Assembly (NCBI RefSeq): GCF_963668385.1
Contig: NZ_OY764327.1
Location: 6,022,724 to 6,086,723 of the forward strand
Length of the DNA: 64,000 nt
DNA from: an uncultured Carboxylicivirga sp.
Lineage (GTDB): Bacteria > Bacteroidota > Bacteroidia > Bacteroidales > Marinilabiliaceae
Reading direction: 5' to 3'
In this document: positions 9,643 through 56,997 of the stretch, one piece after another
Position numbering within the stretch: position 1 is the first letter of the stretch
Layout: each line of letters begins with the position of its first letter
Made by a program: the position numbers and the translations under genes
Notes under the pieces: generated by a model
What the model saw: only the letters and a program-made list of their open reading frames with translations
Database searches by the model: none
Told to the model about the DNA's origin: nothing

Positions 9643-9716
9643 GCCGCTGTAGCTCAGCTGGCTAGAGCAGCTGATTTGTAATCAGCAGGTCGGGGGTTCG
9701 AGTCCCTCCAGCGGCT
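9643..9716 (+). tRNA. tRNA-Thr(TGT), copy 1
   Basis: 74 nt with full cloverleaf pairing: acceptor GCCGCTG with CAGCGGC, and anticodon loop TTTGTAA giving TGT. Unlike the two other copies it is followed by an encoded CCA (9717-9719). Confidence 0.97.
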
Positions 9717-9766
9717 CCAAATTAACCAATGGGTTAATGGAAAAATTTAAAATACTGAATGTAATT

Positions 9767-9849
9767 GGGGAGATACCAAAGTGGCCAACTGGGGCGGACT
9801 GTAACTCCGCTGACTTATGTCTTCGTAGGTTCGAATCCTGCTCTCCCCA
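9767..9849 (+). tRNA. tRNA-Tyr(GTA), copy 1
   Basis: 83 nt class II tRNA with a long variable arm. Acceptor GGGGAGA pairs with TCTCCCC, and the anticodon loop CTGTAAC gives GTA. No CCA is encoded. Confidence 0.97.
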
Positions 9850-9856
9850 CTTTTCT

Positions 9857-9930
9857 GCCGCTGTAGCTCAGCTGGCTAGAGCAGCTGATTTGTAATCAGC
9901 AGGTCGGGGGTTCGAGTCCCTCCAGCGGCT
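9857..9930 (+). tRNA. tRNA-Thr(TGT), copy 2
   Basis: Identical in sequence to copy 1 but without an encoded CCA. It starts 7 bases after tRNA-Tyr copy 1. Confidence 0.97.
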
Positions 9931-9964
9931 CTATTTTAATATAGCAGAAAAGGCAATTACAAAT

Positions 9965-10037
9965 GCGGAAGTAGCTCAGTTGATAGAGCATCAGCCTTCC
10001 AAGCTGAGGGTCGCGGGTTTGAGCCCCGTCTTCCGCT
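9965..10037 (+). tRNA. tRNA-Gly(TCC), copy 1
   Basis: 73 nt with acceptor GCGGAAG pairing with CTTCCGC and anticodon loop CTTCCAA giving TCC. No CCA is encoded. A terminator-like hairpin follows. Confidence 0.97.
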
Positions 10038-10041
10038 CTAC

Positions 10042-10074
10042 AAGCCATTTGATTTTTCGAGTGGCTTTTTTATT
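10042..10074 (+). terminator. Terminator-like hairpin inside the tRNA array, copy 1
   Basis: Stem AAGCCATTTG with CGAGTGGCTT (two G-T pairs) and a 6-base loop, followed by a T run, 5 bases after tRNA-Gly copy 1. A second inverted repeat, AACTGTT with AACAGTT (10084-10105), follows it. Confidence 0.65.
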
Positions 10075-10128
10075 GAAAGTTTCAACTGTTGTAATGATAA
10101 CAGTTATTATAAAATATTGAATGCAATT

Positions 10129-10211
10129 GGGGAGATACCAAAGTGGCCAACTGGGGCGGACTGTAACTCCGCTGACTTATGTCTTCGTAGGTTCGAATCC
10201 TGCTCTCCCCA
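10129..10211 (+). tRNA. tRNA-Tyr(GTA), copy 2
   Basis: Identical to copy 1 over all 83 nt. It starts the second Tyr-Thr-Gly unit, 362 bases after the first. Confidence 0.97.
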
Positions 10212-10218
10212 CTTTTCT

Positions 10219-10292
10219 GCCGCTGTAGCTCAGCTGGCTAGAGCAGCTGATTTGTAATCAGCAGGTCGGGGGTTCGAGTCCCTCCAGCGGCT
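10219..10292 (+). tRNA. tRNA-Thr(TGT), copy 3
   Basis: Identical to the other tRNA-Thr genes; no encoded CCA. The 7-base spacer from tRNA-Tyr equals that in the first unit. Confidence 0.97.
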
Positions 10293-10327
10293 CTTTCTTT
10301 TAAGAGAAGCAGAAAAAATTGCAAATT

Positions 10328-10400
10328 GCGGAAGTAGCTCAGTTGATAGAGCATCAGCCTTCCAAGCTGAGGGTCGCGGGTTTGAGCCCCGTCTTCCGCT
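10328..10400 (+). tRNA. tRNA-Gly(TCC), copy 2
   Basis: Identical to copy 1 over all 73 nt. It is followed by the second internal terminator-like hairpin. Confidence 0.97.
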
Positions 10401-10404
10401 CTAC

Positions 10405-10436
10405 AAGCCATTTGATTTATCAGGTGGCTTTTTTAT
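10405..10436 (+). terminator. Terminator-like hairpin inside the tRNA array, copy 2
   Basis: Stem AAGCCATTTGA with TCAGGTGGCTT and a 4-base loop, followed by T6. It is homologous to the hairpin after tRNA-Gly copy 1, with changes that keep pairing. A second repeat, ATTCTGTAA with TTACAGAAT (10443-10465), followed by T-rich sequence, lies before the last tRNA. Confidence 0.7.
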
Positions 10437-10476
10437 TGACTCATTCTGTAAAATAATTACAGAATACTTTTTTATT

Positions 10477-10559
10477 GGGGAGATACCAAAGTGGCCAACT
10501 GGGGCGGACTGTAACTCCGCTGACTTATGTCTTCGTAGGTTCGAATCCTGCTCTCCCCA
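10477..10559 (+). tRNA. tRNA-Tyr(GTA), copy 3
   Basis: Identical to copies 1 and 2. It ends the array; no Thr or Gly gene follows, so the third repeat unit is partial. Confidence 0.97.
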
Positions 10560-10671
10560 CTCCTACATGCTCCTTAATTTTATTTTTCGTTTGAATTAAA
10601 ATTTACAACTATTTGATATTTGTAAGTACCAATACTGTTAACCTTTTCTTTGAAAATCATACCAATTACAA

Positions 10672-48966: not shown

Positions 48967-49084
48967 TTTTATAAGGATGAAATAAAACCCACTTCACCAC
49001 TCTTTTTATCCTCTTGACAAATATAGTAGCAGAATTAATTCTTTTATTGTAGTATAATCGCATCGAATCACATAGGAGAAAATT

Positions 49085-50803
49085 ATGAAAAAACTATTAT
49101 TCTATTTTATGTTTCTGCTTGCATTCGCTGCCGTCCAGTACAGTTGCGATCGTTCATCAGACATTGAAGTAGGCGACAATGATGACGACAATTCAAGTGG
49201 CGAAAGTCATGATGAAGATATCGATTACGAATGGGATTCGAGCAATGGTACTCTCATTGCATTGGAGGCAACATCGATATACGTTGAAGGATCAGGGGTA
49301 ACTGTTTCTGGCACGGTGGCTACTATCGATAGCGGAGGTTATTATACTGTAACAGGTACTCTTAACGATGGGCAGCTACGCGTTAACACAACCGATACAG
49401 AAAGTGTTCACATTCAATTAAACGGAGCCTCCATAACATGCTCTAACAATGCAGCCATTTTTATTGAAGATTCTGAGAAAACCATTATTATGCTGGCCGA
49501 TGATACATATAACAGCCTTACCGATGGATCCTCTTATGGAAATGAAGAAGACGCTAACGCAGCTCTCTATAGTAAATCTGATCTTACTTTATATGGCAAT
49601 GGAACCCTAATTGTAAAAGCTAATTACAACGATGGTATTACCAGTAAAGACGGATTGATTATATCAGGAGGAAATTACAATATTATTGCAGCCGACGATG
49701 CTATTCGAGGTAAAGATTATTTGATCATAAAAGATGGAATTTTTGATATTGAGGCAGGTGGAGATGGTTTTAAATCTGATAACGAAGATAATGGTACGGG
49801 ATATATCGCTATTGATTATAGCGAATGTAATATTGTTTGCGATGGTGACGGTATACAGGCTACCAGCGATTTATCCATTTCAGCAGGTTATTATACAATT
49901 GAATGTGCCGGAGGTTCAACAGGATATTTAGCTGCAGATGCTTCGGCCAAAGGTCTTAAAGCCGGATCGTCACTTATAATAGATGGTGGCTCATTCACGA
50001 TCAATACACCTGATGATGCTATTCATTCCAATGACGCAATAATCATCAATGGAGGAACATCTGAAATTGCGGCCGGCGATGATGCTATTCATGCCGATAA
50101 TACACTTGAAATTAACGATGGCTACTACTCTATTTCGGAATGTTACGAAGGGGTTGAAAGTAATGTTATCACCATAAACGGAGGATCAGTAGTTTTACAT
50201 TCGAGCGATGATGGAATAAACGCTGCTAACGGATCCGGCGGTATGGGGGGAGGAAATTCAACACTAGCTATCAATGGTGGATTTATTGCTGTATATGCTT
50301 CAGGTGATGGCATTGATGTGAACGGTTCTGCAACCATGACCAGCGGTACAGTATTGGTTCACGGGCCTATCAGCAATGGAAACGGACCACTGGACTACGA
50401 TGGAACCTTTTCCATCTCGGGTGGAATATTAGTTGCCGCAGGAAGTTCTGGAATGGCACAAGCTCCAAGTTCATCATCACAAGCCTCGGTGCTGATAAAC
50501 TTTACATCCAGCAATGCAGGTAACACCATGTTTAACCTTCAATCGGCTGCTGGTGACGAAATCATTACATTCACTCCGGGCAAAACATATCAGTCTATTG
50601 TAATATCAAGTCCTGATATCAATGTAGGATCCAGTTATTCTGCCTATTTAAATGGATCGCATAGTGGCTCTGAAAACGAAGGACTATATACAAATGGAGT
50701 TTATTCTTCCGGCAATCAGTATACGAGTTTTACAGCCAATAGTACCACCACAACTATTGGAAGTTCCAGCGGAGGTGGTGGAGGTGGCCCAGGAAGACCT
50801 TAA
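49085..50803 (+). CDS. Cthe_2159-type beta-helix carbohydrate-binding lipoprotein
   Basis: A protein of 572 residues with a lipobox QYSC (lipidated C21) and a very acidic linker (about 26-50). Residues 60-470 consist of right-handed beta-helix rungs repeating patterns such as DDAI-x-NDAIIINGG and GDGID, rich in D, N and G, as in the Cthe_2159 family (PF14262). Family members bind acidic polysaccharide and calcium. The C-terminus is Ser/Thr rich and ends in a glycine run followed by PGRP. It is followed by a sensor kinase, regulator, polyphosphate polymerase and DUF4956 genes, which often accompany this family. Confidence 0.85.
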   Translation: MKKLLFYFMFLLAFAAVQYSCDRSSDIEVGDNDDDNSSGESHDEDIDYEWDSSNGTLIALEATSIYVEGSGVTVSGTVATIDSGGYYTVTGTLNDGQLRVNTTDTESVHIQLNGASITCSNNAAIFIEDSEKTIIMLADDTYNSLTDGSSYGNEEDANAALYSKSDLTLYGNGTLIVKANYNDGITSKDGLIISGGNYNIIAADDAIRGKDYLIIKDGIFDIEAGGDGFKSDNEDNGTGYIAIDYSECNIVCDGDGIQATSDLSISAGYYTIECAGGSTGYLAADASAKGLKAGSSLIIDGGSFTINTPDDAIHSNDAIIINGGTSEIAAGDDAIHADNTLEINDGYYSISECYEGVESNVITINGGSVVLHSSDDGINAANGSGGMGGGNSTLAINGGFIAVYASGDGIDVNGSATMTSGTVLVHGPISNGNGPLDYDGTFSISGGILVAAGSSGMAQAPSSSSQASVLINFTSSNAGNTMFNLQSAAGDEIITFTPGKTYQSIVISSPDINVGSSYSAYLNGSHSGSENEGLYTNGVYSSGNQYTSFTANSTTTTIGSSSGGGGGGPGRP

Positions 50804-50826
50804 GAAACTGTTTTTCTTTCATACTC

Positions 50827-50862
50827 AACATAGTCTCTTGTTAATGTACAAGAGGCTATGTT
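50827..50862 (+). terminator. Strong hairpin after the beta-helix gene
   Basis: Fifteen-base stem AACATAGTCTCTTGT (50827-50841) with ACAAGAGGCTATGTT (50848-50862) and one G-T pair. No T run follows, so it may be a processing or pausing element or a weak terminator. Confidence 0.5.
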
Positions 50863-50934
50863 ACTTATTCCCATCCCACACCACTATGAATAGTTAAAAA
50901 TCATATATTTACTATTCAAATTAAATTTATCCAA

Positions 50935-52140
50935 GTGACAGAATCACCTTTTAAATTAGATACTCGAGCAATTAATTGGTTAGCTGCTATTATCATCGGT
51001 TTATTTGTGATATTTCCGGATATTGTACGATTTATCGATACCGATGATGATATTGTACCACCACATCAAATAGAACAATTCCGACCTACCCCACCCGATC
51101 AACAAATCAATCCTTACTCCCCTAATAATCATTTACCTGAAAAACCTCCTATCAATCCAGATTTTAAACCTCTTAAACCAGATTTTGATAACGGATTTCC
51201 AAAAATTGTATTCGAGTTTTTTTACTTCTTTGCCTTATCATTAATCCTACTTTTTATTAACAACCGAATTACAAATCCTTTCACTCACTTAAAGAAACTT
51301 ACCCGATACCGACTGGCTATTTCCATAATATCAACTTTATTCATCTGCATTTTAGCTCAATATATTTATTCGCTTCTAAAAGGATTTTATTCTCACGGAC
51401 CCAACTTTGGCTTTTTCAACGGAATGGTATTATTCAAATGTTTCTTTGTGAGTATCATCACCGTACTTTTTAGTCAATTAACTCTGGTTTTATTTAAACA
51501 ACAAGAGATTAGATTTGAGATGGAGCAGTTACGTTCAGAAAATTTACAAAATCGTTTCGATGCCTTAACCTCACAAATCAATCCTCATTTCTTTTTTAAT
51601 TCACTCAATGCTTTGTCTGGATTAGTGCGAATAAAAGACAATTCAAATGCACTAAAATACATCAACGAATTGTCTGTTATATTTAGATATGTCTTAAAAG
51701 GTAAATGGCAGGAATTAGTAGTATTGCAAGATGAAATGCAATTTTTAGAGGCATATCAATATCTGCTACAAATCAGATATGGCGAACGACTTTCGTTCAA
51801 CATCAACATTAATAGTGAAGATGAACAAAACTATCGATTACCTTATTTATCGCTTCAACCCTTGATTGAAAATGTAATTAAACACAACATTATCAGCACC
51901 AGCTATCCCATGAAAATCAATATCTTTATTCAAAACAAAGATACATTGATTGTATCCAATCTAATTCAGCCTAAAATTGAAGTTGAACCAAGTACCGGAA
52001 TAGGATTAAACAATCTTAGTAACAGATACAAACTACTGGTTGATAAAAATATTCAATCCTACATTGATAAAGATTTGTTTATTGTAGAATTACCACTAAC
52101 CTCTGTAGACCAAAATAAAAATGAAAGCACTGATTATTGA
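50935..52140 (+). CDS. LytS-type sensor histidine kinase
   Basis: A protein of 401 residues from a GTG start. Helix 1 is at about 14-33, followed by an outside loop (36-89) with many prolines and acidic residues, then helices at about 92-108, 125-147 and 162-187. The kinase domain has the phosphorylated H218 in SQINPHFFFNSLN and the ATP-binding N box LIENVIKHN. The last 20 bases overlap the LytTR regulator gene. The loop is unusual and may be the sensor; its ligand is unknown. Confidence 0.9.
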   Translation: MTESPFKLDTRAINWLAAIIIGLFVIFPDIVRFIDTDDDIVPPHQIEQFRPTPPDQQINPYSPNNHLPEKPPINPDFKPLKPDFDNGFPKIVFEFFYFFALSLILLFINNRITNPFTHLKKLTRYRLAISIISTLFICILAQYIYSLLKGFYSHGPNFGFFNGMVLFKCFFVSIITVLFSQLTLVLFKQQEIRFEMEQLRSENLQNRFDALTSQINPHFFFNSLNALSGLVRIKDNSNALKYINELSVIFRYVLKGKWQELVVLQDEMQFLEAYQYLLQIRYGERLSFNININSEDEQNYRLPYLSLQPLIENVIKHNIISTSYPMKINIFIQNKDTLIVSNLIQPKIEVEPSTGIGLNNLSNRYKLLVDKNIQSYIDKDLFIVELPLTSVDQNKNESTDY

Positions 52141-52876
52141 AGACGAACATACAGCAGCCGAAAATCTGAAAGCTATTATTAAAGAAGAATCTCGGGATAT
52201 GGAAATCATCGATGTGTTGGATAGTATTCAATCTTCAGTTGAGTACCTAAATAATCAACCAATGCCCGATGTCATTTTTATGGATATTCATTTGGCTGAC
52301 GGACAATCATTCTTAATTTTTGAACAAGTAGAAATTACCTGCCCTGTAATTTTCACTACAGCATATGACGAATATGCACTTGAAGCCTTTAAAGTAAATA
52401 GTATCGATTATTTATTAAAGCCTATTCAACCCGAAGATGTTAGTAGAGCCATCAGAAAACTAAACCAATTAACCAACACTGATAAAGATGAATACACCGA
52501 AAGAATTGAAAGCTTTTTAGCCAGCCGTATCACTTATACTAAAACGTTTTTAATTCCTTATAAAGATAAACTTATTCCTATTTCAACCGCTCAAATAGCT
52601 TTTTTCTACACTTCCAATGAAGCTGTTTCGGTCACCACCGTTGACGGAAGATCCTACCCAATGGATAAATCGTTAGACACATTAATGAACAAACTCGATC
52701 CCGGTTCTTTTTTCAGAGCAAACCGTCAATTTATTATTGCCCATCAAGCCATAAAGGAAGTAGCCATTTGGTTCGGCAATCGCTTATCTGCCACTTTAGT
52801 TGTACCAACCGAGGAACGCATAATCATCAGCAAAGCAAGAGTTTCGTCCTTTAAAAAATGGCTTGCTCAAAATTAG
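52121..52876 (+). CDS. LytTR-family response regulator
   Basis: A protein of 251 residues with a receiver domain (phospho-acceptor D55 in FMDIHLAD, lysine in YLLKPI) and a C-terminal LytTR DNA-binding domain (about 145-250, including the family's FFRANRQFII). It is partner to the overlapping kinase gene. Its position between the beta-helix gene and the polyphosphate polymerase gene suggests that it controls this locus. Confidence 0.93.
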   Translation: MKALIIEDEHTAAENLKAIIKEESRDMEIIDVLDSIQSSVEYLNNQPMPDVIFMDIHLADGQSFLIFEQVEITCPVIFTTAYDEYALEAFKVNSIDYLLKPIQPEDVSRAIRKLNQLTNTDKDEYTERIESFLASRITYTKTFLIPYKDKLIPISTAQIAFFYTSNEAVSVTTVDGRSYPMDKSLDTLMNKLDPGSFFRANRQFIIAHQAIKEVAIWFGNRLSATLVVPTEERIIISKARVSSFKKWLAQN

Positions 52877-53078
52877 TCATTTCATCTCCTCTAAAATTTC
52901 CTACTTCACCTCCTAAATTGGTTGCTTTATAGACAAGACGCCATACTATCCCATCTATTTAAAGTAAAATCGTAGTGGAAACAGGTTAAATACGACACTC
53001 TTAACCATTCCACACAGGAAAACATTTTACGAATCAATCCAACCTGATTGAGATTGGATACAATACATTACAAGAATT

Positions 53079-53849
53079 ATGAAAACGTTGGATACTTCCT
53101 ACTTCGATCCTATATCTCTCGAACAAATGGATGGAGTTAAGTTGATGAATCGGACAGATACAAAGTACTGTACTACCCTGGAACAACTCGACAAATTATT
53201 GAAGAAAATTGAGCCTTATTATTATGCCTTAACTATGGAGGGTGAAAATCAACTTCCTTACTCAACAACGTATTTCGATACACCATCAGCCAACATGTAT
53301 TGTAATCACGTTAGAGGGAAAAAGAACCGATATAAAATCAGGCGACGCACCTATCTTTCTACCGGCATTCATTTTATGGAAATTAAGTTTAAAAACAATA
53401 AAGGAAGAACCATTAAAGAACGTATTTCTACACAAGCCATCTTTGATCAATTAAGCAGCGAAGAGCAAGTATTTTTAAACGAACACACTCCTTTTAATCC
53501 GTTTCAATTATCACCTGGTTTATACAATAGTTTTAGCAGATTAACGCTGGTTAACCACAACTTTAAAGAACGTTGTACGATTGATTTTAATTTACTTTTT
53601 GCGCACGACAACGAGATACTGACATTAAAAGATTTGGTTATTATAGAACTTAAAACCGGGCAACGCGACATACACTCCAATCTGGCCATTGCTCTAAGAG
53701 ATATGAGGATTAAACCCTCCAGTTTCAGTAAATACACCATGGGCAGATCATTACTGGATGAAAAGCTTAAAACAAACGCTATTAAACCTAAGCTTCGCAA
53801 CTTAAAGAAACTATCTAGAATCTCTTTTCTATCACCTCAATTAACTTAA
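53079..53849 (+). CDS. VTC-domain polyphosphate polymerase
   Basis: A protein of 256 residues matching the VTC catalytic tunnel domain without SPX or membrane parts. Basic and acidic tunnel motifs are in order: MNRTDTKY (23-30), the YFDT segment near 66, KIRRRTY near 87, MEIKFKNNKGRTIKER near 98-113, the IIELKTG near 188-194 and FSKYTMGRS near 212-220. In yeast Vtc4 these bind ATP and growing polyphosphate. The next gene, a DUF4956 membrane protein 6 bases downstream, is the likely membrane partner. Confidence 0.9.
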   Translation: MKTLDTSYFDPISLEQMDGVKLMNRTDTKYCTTLEQLDKLLKKIEPYYYALTMEGENQLPYSTTYFDTPSANMYCNHVRGKKNRYKIRRRTYLSTGIHFMEIKFKNNKGRTIKERISTQAIFDQLSSEEQVFLNEHTPFNPFQLSPGLYNSFSRLTLVNHNFKERCTIDFNLLFAHDNEILTLKDLVIIELKTGQRDIHSNLAIALRDMRIKPSSFSKYTMGRSLLDEKLKTNAIKPKLRNLKKLSRISFLSPQLT

Positions 53850-53855
53850 ATATTA

Positions 53856-54539
53856 ATGACTACAAATATTTTATCTGTCACATCACTATATACGTATTTA
53901 TTAGAAACATTTGGCTGGGAAGAGAACCTACGCTTTTTAGACATTAAACTGATTAATGTTAGCGACTTAACGGAATTAATAGTTCGGTTTGCACTCAACC
54001 TATTACTCATTTTTGTGATTGTGCATTTTATGTACGCCCGAGGCAGTAAACGCAAAGACTTTTATTTTAGCTACTTATCTATTGGTGTATTAGTTTTTTT
54101 AATGTGCTTTTTACTAAGTAGTGTCAAACTTGAATTGGGTTTTGCCATGGGATTGTTTGCCATTTTTGGTATTATCCGCTACCGAACCGATGCTATACCC
54201 ATTAAAGAAATGACCTATCTATTTATAGTGATTGGAATCTCGGTAATAAATGCCTTAGCAAATAAAAAAGTAAGCTACAGTGAATTAATGTTTACCAATG
54301 GCATTATTCTACTTGGATTATGGTTTCTTGAAAAACGACTTAGCCTGAAACAAGAAAACTGCATTACTCTTATCTACGAAAGAATAGAAAATATACATAC
54401 TCTGAAGCAAGATGAACTATTAAATGATTTAAAAAATCGAACTGGAATAGCAATCAAACGGTATGAAATTCAGAAAATAGATTTTTTACGAGACGTTGCA
54501 GAAATAACTCTGTATTTCAATGCTAATGGAAAAGACTAA
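53856..54539 (+). CDS. DUF4956 membrane protein
   Basis: A protein of 227 residues with four to five hydrophobic segments (about 43-66, 70-92, 96-112, 122-140, 148-162). It carries the family's core MGLFAIFGIIRYRTDAIPIKEM and a soluble C-terminal alpha/beta part of about 65 residues. Function is unknown. In many bacteria this family is the immediate neighbour of VTC-type polymerases, which suggests that it anchors the enzyme or moves the polymer across the membrane (inference). Confidence 0.85.
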   Translation: MTTNILSVTSLYTYLLETFGWEENLRFLDIKLINVSDLTELIVRFALNLLLIFVIVHFMYARGSKRKDFYFSYLSIGVLVFLMCFLLSSVKLELGFAMGLFAIFGIIRYRTDAIPIKEMTYLFIVIGISVINALANKKVSYSELMFTNGIILLGLWFLEKRLSLKQENCITLIYERIENIHTLKQDELLNDLKNRTGIAIKRYEIQKIDFLRDVAEITLYFNANGKD

Positions 54540-54556
54540 TTACTAACACATACCTG

Positions 54557-55210
54557 ATGAAGCAATATCACTTATCATACAAGCACTTTACCATTACCTT
54601 AATGTCCCTTATTTCAATATCGCTATCGGCACAAACCACCGAAAACGAATGGCAGACTCGTACTGCGTTTACTGCTCAGTTTAAATTGGCAAAAAAAATT
54701 AAACTCGACATTGCTCCGGAACTCCGTTTTGAAGATCAGTTTAAGTTAGACAGAAGTCAACTGGAGGCTGAACTTAAATACAAAGCATTTGACTTCTTAA
54801 CTATTGGTACACGTTATCGCTATATTATCAATTATAGAGACAATAAAGATACTGAATACATGCACCGTTACATGTTGAATGCAACCATAAAAAAAGAGTT
54901 TGATCGATGGGAACCAGGTTTCCGATTAAGCTATACCGATTATACTGATGACAATAGCGGATCTGCCTTTTTACGCTACAAAGCATTTACATCGTACAAC
55001 TTAAAAAACTGTAAATTTACTCCTAAGTTTGCCATTCAAGCCTATCATGACATTAGCAACTCCGAATGGTATAAAATTAGATACGAAGCCGGATTTGATT
55101 ACAAACTTTTTAAAAAGAATAGTATAAGCTTTGCCTATAAATTAGATTACTATCTGAACGAAGCACGAAACCGTCATGTAATTGACATTGGATATAAAGT
55201 TAGGTTTTAA
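54557..55210 (+). CDS. DUF2490 outer-membrane protein
   Basis: A protein of 217 residues with a signal peptide (hydrophobic about 11-26, then AQT). The rest is a series of amphipathic strands with aromatic ends and a C-terminal KVRF, typical of a small outer-membrane barrel of the DUF2490 family (NEWQTRTAF near the mature start). It is the last gene of the VTC-DUF4956 unit, 17 bases downstream, placing an outer-membrane pore or assembly factor in that system. Confidence 0.82.
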   Translation: MKQYHLSYKHFTITLMSLISISLSAQTTENEWQTRTAFTAQFKLAKKIKLDIAPELRFEDQFKLDRSQLEAELKYKAFDFLTIGTRYRYIINYRDNKDTEYMHRYMLNATIKKEFDRWEPGFRLSYTDYTDDNSGSAFLRYKAFTSYNLKNCKFTPKFAIQAYHDISNSEWYKIRYEAGFDYKLFKKNSISFAYKLDYYLNEARNRHVIDIGYKVRF

Positions 55211-55212
55211 CA

Positions 55213-55275
55213 AAAAACCGGAAGAGTCTCCCATCATCCCCGATTGTAAAGACTTTTCCGGTTTATTTTTTTACC
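55213..55275 (+). terminator. Terminator of the VTC-DUF4956-DUF2490 unit
   Basis: AAACCGGAAGAGTCT pairs with AGACTTTTCCGGTTT around a 20-base loop, followed by ATTTTTTT. The stem could serve both convergent genes. Confidence 0.8.
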
Positions 55276-55282
55276 TAATTAA

Positions 55283-56851
55283 CTATCTTCTTCCTCCACC
55301 AGAGCGTCCACCTCCACCTGAATTACGGGCAGGTGATGTTGAACGTGGAGTACTCATATTTGATCTGAAACTTTCATTCGATCTGTAATTGTTATAATTC
55401 ATTGGACTAGTCGTGGTTCGATTTGAGTTTTGATTGCTTCTCGTATTCGATTGTTGCGACTGCCTCGTTGTATTCTGGTTCGATCGATTCGATTGAGTAT
55501 TTGAACTCTGCCTTGTCGATTGAGACTGACGGGTTGTTGCCTCTCTCGAGGTAGCTTGATTCGACTGCCTGGTTGTTGCTTGTCGCGATGACTGATTTCC
55601 CTGACGGGTGGTAGCCTGACGTGAATTATTGCTTACTTCCCGAGTTGACTGTCGGGTTGTTGGCCTGGTTTCGCGAGATGCAACTCTGTCGTTTTTCACT
55701 CTTCCGCTCGAACTTAATACATTATCTCTTCTACTATCAATTTGTCGTAACTGTCTTCTATCAACCTGTCTGTTATCACTAATATTTCGGCGAACAGTAC
55801 GATTAAAATCATATCGTGAATATGGATGACGATAAGAATGACGGCAGTAATGATAAGCTAAATGAGGATACCTGTTTGGATATCTATGAAATTGCCACCC
55901 AACATACCAATACGATGGCATGCCAATAAACACCATTCCCCCGCCAGGTCCATAATAAAAACCAGTATGATAATACCATGGATAAGGTCTCCAATAAGGA
56001 GATGAATACCATGTAGGGTATCCATACCAATATGAGTAATGATGTACATAAACAACTTCGGTTACTGTTTCAACAGGTTGCGCAACATTTCCATTACCTG
56101 TTTCTTCGGTATATTGCTGCGCAGCCTCAACCATTTCAGCCATTGCCTGATCATCTTGTTCAAGCTGTGCTTTATAATCAGCTAACTCTTTACGTTTCTG
56201 CTCATTGATCTCGAGATAACGAGTTTCTAAATCAGCTTCCAACGCCTTGGGATCTTCACGATAAGCCTGACCAACCAAACGTACCATTTCGAGATTATCT
56301 GACATGGTACTTAATACTTCGGGATACTCCAGCATACGTTTCATGCTTTTTTGCAACGATTCATCGTAAGTCGAAAGCATATTGTTAAAATCTTTCTTAT
56401 TCTTCTGATTTAATCGATGTATGGCATACAAGGCATCATATTCAGTAGATCCGTATTTCTTGCACGATTCATGAATATCCTCAGGATAAATCATGGCTAG
56501 TAGTTCCACTTCTTTTTTTGACTTTTTACCACCTTCTACCAAATCAGCAATTAGATCAGGATAGCGGGTTAAATCATATAACCCTTCTTGCACATCTCTT
56601 TTATATGGCTTTAAAATATTCTGAAAAGCAGAACCAGAGTTATCTTTCAACTCATCCATTTTCACGAACAACTCTGGGTATAACGATACTGTCAAAATAT
56701 CTTTTCGAATAGTTAAATCATACGCTGCCAATCCATCCATCAACAAGCTGTCTTCCTCAACCAATTCCCTGTACCCAATACTCTGAGCATTCACCAGTGT
56801 AGCTGCGGAGAAAAAACTGATCATCACTAATAAATAAATTCGTGTTCTCAT
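55283..56851 (-). CDS. Secreted protein with an R/Q/S/T/N-rich disordered tail
   Basis: A protein of 522 residues from the ATG at 56851; an upstream in-frame start would add residues ahead of a clear signal peptide (MRTRIYLLVMISFFSAATLV). Residues 30-245 are helical and charged with recurring YPEL/YPDL/YPEV motifs. A Tyr/Trp/Pro/His/Gly-rich stretch (about 265-345) follows. The last 170 residues are low complexity, dominated by R, Q, S, T and N with repeated ATTRQ units, ending in a Gly-Arg run. No family is recognised with confidence. It converges on the DUF2490 gene. Confidence 0.7.
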   Translation of the reverse strand: MRTRIYLLVMISFFSAATLVNAQSIGYRELVEEDSLLMDGLAAYDLTIRKDILTVSLYPELFVKMDELKDNSGSAFQNILKPYKRDVQEGLYDLTRYPDLIADLVEGGKKSKKEVELLAMIYPEDIHESCKKYGSTEYDALYAIHRLNQKNKKDFNNMLSTYDESLQKSMKRMLEYPEVLSTMSDNLEMVRLVGQAYREDPKALEADLETRYLEINEQKRKELADYKAQLEQDDQAMAEMVEAAQQYTEETGNGNVAQPVETVTEVVYVHHYSYWYGYPTWYSSPYWRPYPWYYHTGFYYGPGGGMVFIGMPSYWYVGWQFHRYPNRYPHLAYHYCRHSYRHPYSRYDFNRTVRRNISDNRQVDRRQLRQIDSRRDNVLSSSGRVKNDRVASRETRPTTRQSTREVSNNSRQATTRQGNQSSRQATTRQSNQATSREATTRQSQSTRQSSNTQSNRSNQNTTRQSQQSNTRSNQNSNRTTTSPMNYNNYRSNESFRSNMSTPRSTSPARNSGGGGRSGGGRR

Positions 56852-56997
56852 AATTTCGGTTTTTATGTGAGACAAGCTAAAATATGAATATATGAATGCA
56901 ATTGCCATGCCCAAAATCCATTTTGGCTAATAAGTTTTACTAAGTTGTGGTTTTATACTGAACAGAAGTGTTTTTTCAATGGTAGCTAAACAATTGA

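Follow-up and report, generated by a model that had tools for sequence, protein, structure and literature searches.

This report concerns six consecutive plus-strand genes in an uncultured Carboxylicivirga sp. that may couple the synthesis of polyphosphate to its export across the envelope. The genes lie in a 64-kb window (positions 6022724-6086723 of a single-contig genome of 6,271,090 bases); by the window we mean this whole stretch of analyzed DNA. They encode a Cthe_2159-family protein, a LytS-type sensor kinase, a LytTR regulator, a VTC-domain protein, a DUF4956 membrane protein, and a DUF2490 protein (Table 1). An earlier reading of the DNA letters alone, here called the original prediction, had placed these families in this order on one strand and had proposed a surface polyphosphate system. 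Gene coordinates and Pfam agree with the placement, and all six Pfam assignments are above the curated cut-off of their family. Among named organisms, the DUF4956 protein points to Marinilabiliaceae as the nearest relatives, for example Carboxylicivirga linearis at 84-85% identity.

Table 1. Genes and promoter elements of the cluster, in window coordinates (aa, amino acids)
Feature	Position	Strand	Evidence
Promoter element of the Cthe_2159 gene: ACTTCACC, then GTATAATCG 61 bases on	48991..49060	+	
Cthe_2159-family acidic beta-helix protein, 572 aa	49085..50803	+	Pfam PF14262, 1e-88
LytS-type sensor histidine kinase, 401 aa, GTG start	50935..52140	+	Pfam PF06580 (His_kinase), 4.6e-23
LytTR response regulator, 251 aa	52121..52876	+	Pfam PF04397, 2.5e-18; PF00072 (Response_reg), 4.9e-14
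Promoter element of the VTC operon: ACTTCACC, then GTAAAATCG 61 bases on; weak second half-site, 5/9	52903..52972	+	
VTC-domain protein, 256 aa, candidate polyphosphate polymerase	53079..53849	+	Pfam PF09359, 1.4e-24
DUF4956 membrane protein, 227 aa, candidate inner-membrane conduit/anchor	53856..54539	+	Pfam PF16316, 1.9e-50
DUF2490 protein, 217 aa, putative outer-membrane porin family	54557..55210	+	Pfam PF10677, 7.1e-11, 42.6 bits

The kinase and regulator genes overlap by 20 bases, and DUF4956 starts 6 bases after the VTC stop, the distance that had been predicted. By Kyte-Doolittle hydropathy, the VTC protein has no membrane segment, in line with the soluble polymerase proposed earlier; DUF4956 has about four; and in the kinase a Pro-rich stretch separates the first hydrophobic segments, in keeping with the predicted Pro/acidic-rich loop. 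VTC is the sole Pfam domain of its protein and scores 87.4 bits, 64 above the cut-off of 23. Its tunnel-type residues, RxKxRxR (84-90), ExKxK (101-105), ExK (190-192), and SKY (217-219), do not vary across an alignment of 26 sequences. The third hydrophobic segment of DUF4956 ends with two arginines, R108 and R110, that are present in all 70 rows of the DUF2490 type and all 31 of the HlyD type described below, and in 4/5 and 5/5 rows, respectively, from other phyla. A search of DUF4956 against solved structures returned nothing (best E 1.1), and an NCBIfam scan of eight proteins gave zero matches. The idea, formed by eye, that DUF4956 is a relative of MgtC/SapB was rejected on an hhalign comparison (probability 0.4%, only 6 MgtC rows). 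DUF2490 is listed as TC 1.B.81, a "putative porin family", in the consulted section of that source (PMC4827864). The Cthe_2159 protein is strongly acidic (73 D+E versus 16 K+R), matches 4peu/4phb in the PDB at 2.6e-28, and has a lipoprotein-like N terminus as read from the sequence (SC|DRSSDIE). Pfam describes the family as carbohydrate-binding, and to hold polyphosphate the acidic beta-helix would require Ca2+ bridges.

We compared the cluster with two collections of loci. One consists of the best 80 of 115 loci from species genomes, ranked by DUF4956 similarity and hence skewed to close relatives, with genes labelled by profiles built from the window proteins. The other is a survey of 148 genomes of the phylum. 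In 76 of the 80 related loci, VTC is the gene immediately 5' of DUF4956 and shares its strand; of the four exceptions, two lie where a contig begins. The survey found VTC in 29 genomes, DUF4956 in 45, CotH in 59, and Cthe_2159 in 6 (4 above the cut-off). Every one of the 29 VTC genomes also has DUF4956 (Fisher 1.2e-19); such values overstate the association, since the surveyed genomes share ancestry and are not independent. DUF4956 stands within 1 kb of 30 of the 34 VTC matches; the other four are two at 2.7-2.9 kb, the second VTC of the window's genome, and one short match on a different contig. VTC-DUF4956 is a genuine unit. Rare adjacency, named beforehand as the result that would count against the original prediction, was sought in the 80 loci, in 47 survey loci, and across the 148 genomes, and was not found.

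DUF4956 commonly has an envelope-type neighbor. Among the 80 related loci, DUF2490 lies directly 3' of it in 52 and no farther than 6 kb away in 57. For the survey, we took the flanks of 47 DUF4956 matches outside the window's genome and counted those genes of the same operon that lay within three genes. The partners were VTC in 31 loci, an HlyD-type protein of 326-376 aa in 31, DUF2490 in 8, and a CotH-profile protein in 8. DUF2490 and HlyD occur together in none of the 47, and 8 have neither. Outside operons, HlyD-type genes made up 1 of 244. Pfam HlyD_3 is matched by 21 and HlyD_D23 by 19 of the 31 adaptors, and their family profile matches EmrA at 3.3e-26. In 14 survey loci a further protein follows HlyD, TolC-type by profile grouping, and locus L172 holds CotH, DUF4956, HlyD, OEP (4.3e-17), and VTC in one run. 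The predicted outer-membrane neighbor thus has an envelope-type counterpart in 57/80 related and 39/47 survey loci, which makes it common, not universal. On a FastTree phylogeny of 144 DUF4956 proteins, for which long branches call for caution, the DUF2490 and HlyD types are separated by one change. This speaks against repeated independent swaps and for two DUF4956 subfamilies with partners of their own.

A set of DUF4956-HlyD operons without VTC (L154-L156, L161, L162, L165-L169, L171, and L174) has a composition of its own. A gene of 182-195 aa comes before, in L154 a DUF6580 membrane protein (7.5e-58), and a protein of about 410 aa, mostly without a Pfam match, comes after. These operons are possibly a second DUF4956 system with a different substrate.

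Beyond the phylum survey, DUF4956 occurs in eleven plasmid records, six of which we inspected. The Deinococcus taeanensis plasmid carries a CotH-VTC-DUF4956 run (Pfam-checked), and in Deinococcus QL22 VTC-DUF4956 adjoins an acid phosphatase and phosphonate/phosphate uptake genes. In Nitratireductor, sigma/anti-sigma and MsrB/MsrA genes accompany DUF4956-VTC (as annotated), a PHO4 transporter (1.7e-106), and a phytase-like protein (1.3e-28); Shinella has DUF4956-VTC-phytase-like (as annotated), and an unannotated Streptomyces plasmid has DUF4956 followed by a VTC-like frame. The Pseudoalteromonas plasmid encodes a lamin-tail protein, a 104-aa frame resembling the VTC C terminus, DUF4956, and, one base after it, a Porin_O_P porin (2.4e-47), the only porin neighbor among the six records. 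Porin_O_P (PF07396) comprises phosphate-selective porins; the window has a different Pfam family, DUF2490, in this position. Selectivity for polyphosphate is known from OprO. DUF2490 itself was found among the plasmids in one Bacteroides record. Since phosphate genes adjoin VTC-DUF4956 in other phyla, a phosphate compound is favored as the substrate.

At the cell surface, the cluster differs from most of its relatives. Within 6 kb in the 80 related loci, we found a CotH-profile protein in 25, Cthe_2159 in 8, and each two-component gene in 22. CotH mostly lies directly 3' of DUF2490; two examples from these loci match Pfam CotH at 1e-69 and 3.6e-73, and one cluster CotH matches the solved spore-coat CotH 5jd9 at 4.1e-21. 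The two surface families meet in one related locus, L060, and in L014 and L067 Cthe_2159 occupies the CotH slot, between DUF2490 and the kinase-regulator pair. At the genome level, CotH is present in 28/29 VTC genomes and 41/45 DUF4956 genomes versus 18/103 without DUF4956. CotH is the commoner surface partner of VTC-DUF4956, and Cthe_2159 is the rarer one. The original prediction had listed VTC, DUF4956, and Cthe_2159 as co-occurring, often with CotH; the pairing of VTC with DUF4956 and the link to CotH stood, whereas Cthe_2159 as a regular member (8/80 loci, 6/148 genomes) did not. Most CotH lipoproteins that we tabulated have a Cys followed by basic and then acidic residues, and the Cthe_2159 proteins are similar, if less regular. 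A Cys with such a basic/acidic stretch resembles the surface-export signal of Bacteroidota lipoproteins.

The lone VTC genome of the survey that lacks a CotH match is the window's own. About 33 kb after the window VTC, however, a second VTC stands beside a divergent CotH-like gene (Pfam 7.6e-07). A second DUF4956 (L092:8560-9207, genome 5993628) is solitary, about 82 kb before the first. In a same-genus genome (L094), the DUF4956 of a CotH-DUF2490-VTC-DUF4956 operon shares 74% identity with this solitary copy, which looks like the remnant of a broken-up operon. In the same-genus locus L011, VTC, DUF4956, and a CotH-like gene form one operon; this CotH-like gene is 48% identical to that of the window's genome, and the L011 VTC is 68% identical to the second VTC. 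Given this second pair and the L011 operon, a local replacement seems to account for the absence of CotH from the cluster. The earlier remark that no CotH gene is seen is thus accurate for the six genes, with a CotH-like gene elsewhere in the same genome.

The tie to CotH raises an alternative in which VTC makes polyphosphate, or a short oligophosphate, that is passed out by DUF4956 as the phosphate donor for CotH kinases, there being no ATP outside the cell; Cthe_2159 loci would then be a derived, kinase-free version. We know of no phosphate donor for extracellular CotH kinase-fold proteins, and if exported polyphosphate does feed CotH, it would explain how these kinases act where ATP is absent. 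The genome-level distribution of CotH and the match to 5jd9 agree with this alternative, but CotH is within three genes of DUF4956 in just 8/47 survey loci by profile, and 7 of the 8 Cthe_2159 loci have no CotH within 6 kb. The earlier CotH work known to us used ATP. The contiguous genes of D. taeanensis, and the place of CotH beside Gram-positive Pel genes in the section of the Pel study covered here (PMC7112168), again speak for it; on balance, we regard it as rather unlikely. A broader proposal makes DUF4956 a widespread exporter with alternative outer exits (DUF2490, HlyD/TolC-type proteins, or a phosphate-type porin), with the exported polyphosphate giving surface CotH kinases their energy or their phosphate; this we find doubtful.

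Two further observations concern gene content around VTC. L094:8037-14165 and L097:5305-11398 have a variant order of large protein, small protein, DUF2490, VTC, and DUF4956, the large protein of L094 being a 1183-aa CotH with lamin-tail domains and a secretion tail. A small secreted-looking protein, mostly just 5' of VTC, is encoded at L017:94-501 and in nine further loci of one cluster, and was seen by eye at L172:3405-3809; the L017 protein matches Metal_resist (1e-06) and, weakly, LTXXQ, that is, it is Spy-like.

The Cthe_2159 gene and the VTC operon are each preceded by a promoter element of similar design (Table 1). The block pair ACTTCACC (or AGTTCACC) and GTAWAATCG, exactly 61 bases apart with an intervening gap of 53 bases, is found at both promoters in the window, in L012, and in L013; upstream of the L027 VTC, the second block is TAAAATTG at the same distance. 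A looser pattern applied to 113 upstream regions gave ten rows, all including spacing 61 and all from Cthe_2159-type loci, two of which are copies of others. All promoter patterns were composed after the sites had been seen. In the 6.27-Mb genome, the exact pattern occurs twice, only at the Cthe_2159 and VTC promoters, and the reversed control gave zero. Among 19 other genomes, the pattern matched in 7; G053 and G209 carry the sequences of both promoters, there were six further matches, and the reversed control matched once. At the Cthe_2159 promoter, a second half-site, CCTCTTGAC, follows 21 bases after CCACTTCAC (7/9 match), and upstream of the L027 Cthe_2159 gene CCACTTCAC and CCACTTCCC lie 21 bases apart as a LytTR-like direct repeat. 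Published LytTR sites are described, in the excerpt consulted, as pairs of 9-bp direct repeats with 10-13 bp spacing upstream of targets (PMC11347149). Six relatives have a different, clearer repeat pair, (T)TCGTTGAT or close, with a period of 21-22, 60-112 bases before VTC (the CotH loci L017, L020, L021, L022, and L029 and the Cthe_2159 locus L023). A pattern derived from these sites has eight matches in 1.16 Mb, six of them these VTC upstream regions, and the pair is present in 5 of the 13 CotH loci that have both regulator genes. Three of the six sites have a TAnnTTTG box, the Bacteroidota -7 box, 55 bases on.

Since the motif is common to both promoters at identical spacing and unique in the genome, it suggests that the Cthe_2159-kinase-regulator group and the VTC-DUF4956-DUF2490 group are one regulon. 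Both operons are probably under the control of the regulator whose gene lies between them. This bears on whether the six genes are adjacent merely by chance, with no common function. Cthe_2159 and the two-component genes are indeed a minority in related loci (8/80 and 22/80 each). Adjacency and co-occurrence, together with a promoter pattern exclusive to these two operons, make chance very improbable, and for VTC-DUF4956-DUF2490 it is already largely refuted.

Taken together, we read the locus as a regulated machine that couples polyphosphate synthesis to trans-envelope export, with a probability of about one-half. VTC would build the chain from ATP in the cytoplasm. DUF4956 would anchor VTC at the inner membrane and let the chain through, the role of the membrane helices in the yeast VTC complex, and DUF2490 would serve as an outer-membrane pore or anchor. 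In other lineages, the DUF2490 slot would be taken by a Porin_O_P porin or by an HlyD-type adaptor, the latter occasionally joined by a TolC-type protein. Through the common promoter element, to which LytTR may bind directly, the LytS/LytTR pair would activate the VTC operon as well as Cthe_2159, the surface protein encoded with the pair; the surface partner would be Cthe_2159 here and, more commonly in relatives, a CotH kinase-fold lipoprotein. A PPK1 is present in the window's genome, so VTC would be a dedicated extra route to polyphosphate. What the sequences show directly is which families the genes belong to, how their adjacency is conserved, which partners they have, and that the two promoters have an element in common; the polymerase activity, the nature of the product, its passage through DUF4956 and DUF2490, the binding of LytTR, and any part played by the surface protein are inferred.

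The yeast VTC complex (Vtc1/3/4) couples polyphosphate synthesis to translocation, and basic residues of its membrane helices are required for chain passage, according to the portion of the report considered here (PMC9911596). Like that complex, the cluster has a VTC domain with conserved basic residues, a multihelix membrane part, and conserved arginines near the membrane. Unlike eukaryotic VTC proteins, the protein here is soluble: its 256 aa carry neither SPX nor any Pfam domain besides VTC, and it lacks membrane helices; its membrane partner is DUF4956, which we set beside Vtc1 by role only, and an outer-membrane neighbor is added. Because VTC lacks membrane segments and DUF4956 has conserved arginines, the analogy with the yeast basic residues makes DUF4956 the candidate conduit for polyphosphate. 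Gram-positive Pel clusters have accessory genes in the order CotH - polyphosphate polymerase - DUF4956 - DUF4832 in the excerpt at hand (PMC7112168). They share with our cluster a polymerase contiguous with DUF4956. They differ in that CotH belongs to the Pel set and is replaced by Cthe_2159 here, where there are also a LytS/LytTR pair and DUF2490 and no Pel among the six genes. In Bacteroides thetaiotaomicron, BT3498-BT3499 (DUF4956 and DUF2490) are likewise listed as one unit, in a single entry of the expression table of an iron study (-7.6, p 0.175; PMC10434189, as far as consulted). In excerpts of other reports, a Bifidobacterium expression table lists a DUF4956 gene (PMC6848847) and C. 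perfringens has a VTC/CotH locus (PMC2879425, PMC11677781). A literature search, with most subscription journals and preprints outside its coverage, found no function reported for DUF4956 or, among the titles listed, for bacterial VTC. To our knowledge, this is the first account of the envelope-neighbor pattern, of the promoter elements, of Cthe_2159 standing in for CotH, and of the split second system.

A number of results weigh against export by such a machine. We know of no activity for any of these proteins. On the envelope side, within 6 kb 23 of the 80 related loci lack DUF2490, and within 1.5 kb none has an HlyD-type adaptor, some loci in both counts being cut by contig ends. The 11 VTC-side adaptors as a group match solved adaptors weakly (8e-08); Pfam OEP is matched by 3 of the 14 TolC-type proteins (best 4.3e-17), and the TolC-type group profile found no OEP structure in the PDB. 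The split between DUF2490 and HlyD is a single lineage switch, not many, and the porin example comes from a single plasmid record with a fragmentary VTC. The loci lacking DUF2490, and the 8 of 47 with neither DUF2490 nor HlyD, would be expected if polyphosphate stayed at the inner membrane face, with DUF2490 and the other outer proteins adjacent for regulation and carrying nothing. We think this unlikely, given that three envelope families (DUF2490, HlyD-type, and Porin_O_P) adjoin DUF4956 or VTC and that HlyD-type genes are so rare outside the operons (1/244).

On the enzyme side, the single VTC sequence had zero matches in the PDB, and its profile found a weak Vtc2 match alone (E 0.093). DUF4956 is not tied to VTC: a VTC match is absent from 16 of the 45 DUF4956 genomes, and VTC is absent from 13 of the 31 HlyD-type loci; the latter count implies a DUF4956 family wider than polyphosphate. 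This distance from solved yeast VTC, and DUF4956 without VTC, would fit a VTC-domain protein that is a different triphosphate-tunnel enzyme, such as a tripolyphosphatase, with DUF4956 acting on another substrate. The Pfam cut-off exceeded by 64 bits, the invariant tunnel-type residues, and the phosphate transporter, phosphatase, and phytase-like neighbors in other phyla render this improbable. On the regulatory side, the motif is present in 3 of the 8 related Cthe_2159 loci (L012, L013, and L027), and the second half-site is poorly kept, with 3-5 matching positions out of 9 at either promoter of L012 and L013. The window promoter pair alone is not significant, being equaled by 218 of 2000 shuffles and by 90 of up to 1000 random window pairs; the promoter claim therefore rests on cross-species conservation and uniqueness in the genome.

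Both VTC and DUF4956 are common across the phylum, with 29 and 45, respectively, of the 148 surveyed genomes. Should the cluster prove to export polyphosphate, it would be a second, PPK-independent bacterial route, built for the envelope, and would place VTC, DUF4956, DUF2490, and CotH in a single frame. The analysis singles out a small gene set open to testing, along with one regulator and two promoters.

The cluster is preceded on its 5' side by a coproporphyrinogen oxidase gene. On the 3' side, an inverted repeat at 55212-55267 separates it from a facing minus-strand gene (55283-56914) for a 543-aa protein with an Arg/Ser/Asn/Gln-rich tail and weak, below-cut-off similarity to DUF3300. Elsewhere in the window, positions 9643-10560 hold an array of eight tRNA genes (Thr, Tyr, Thr, Gly, Tyr, Thr, Gly, Tyr) in which Tyr-Thr-Gly units are repeated, with one anticodon per amino acid throughout.

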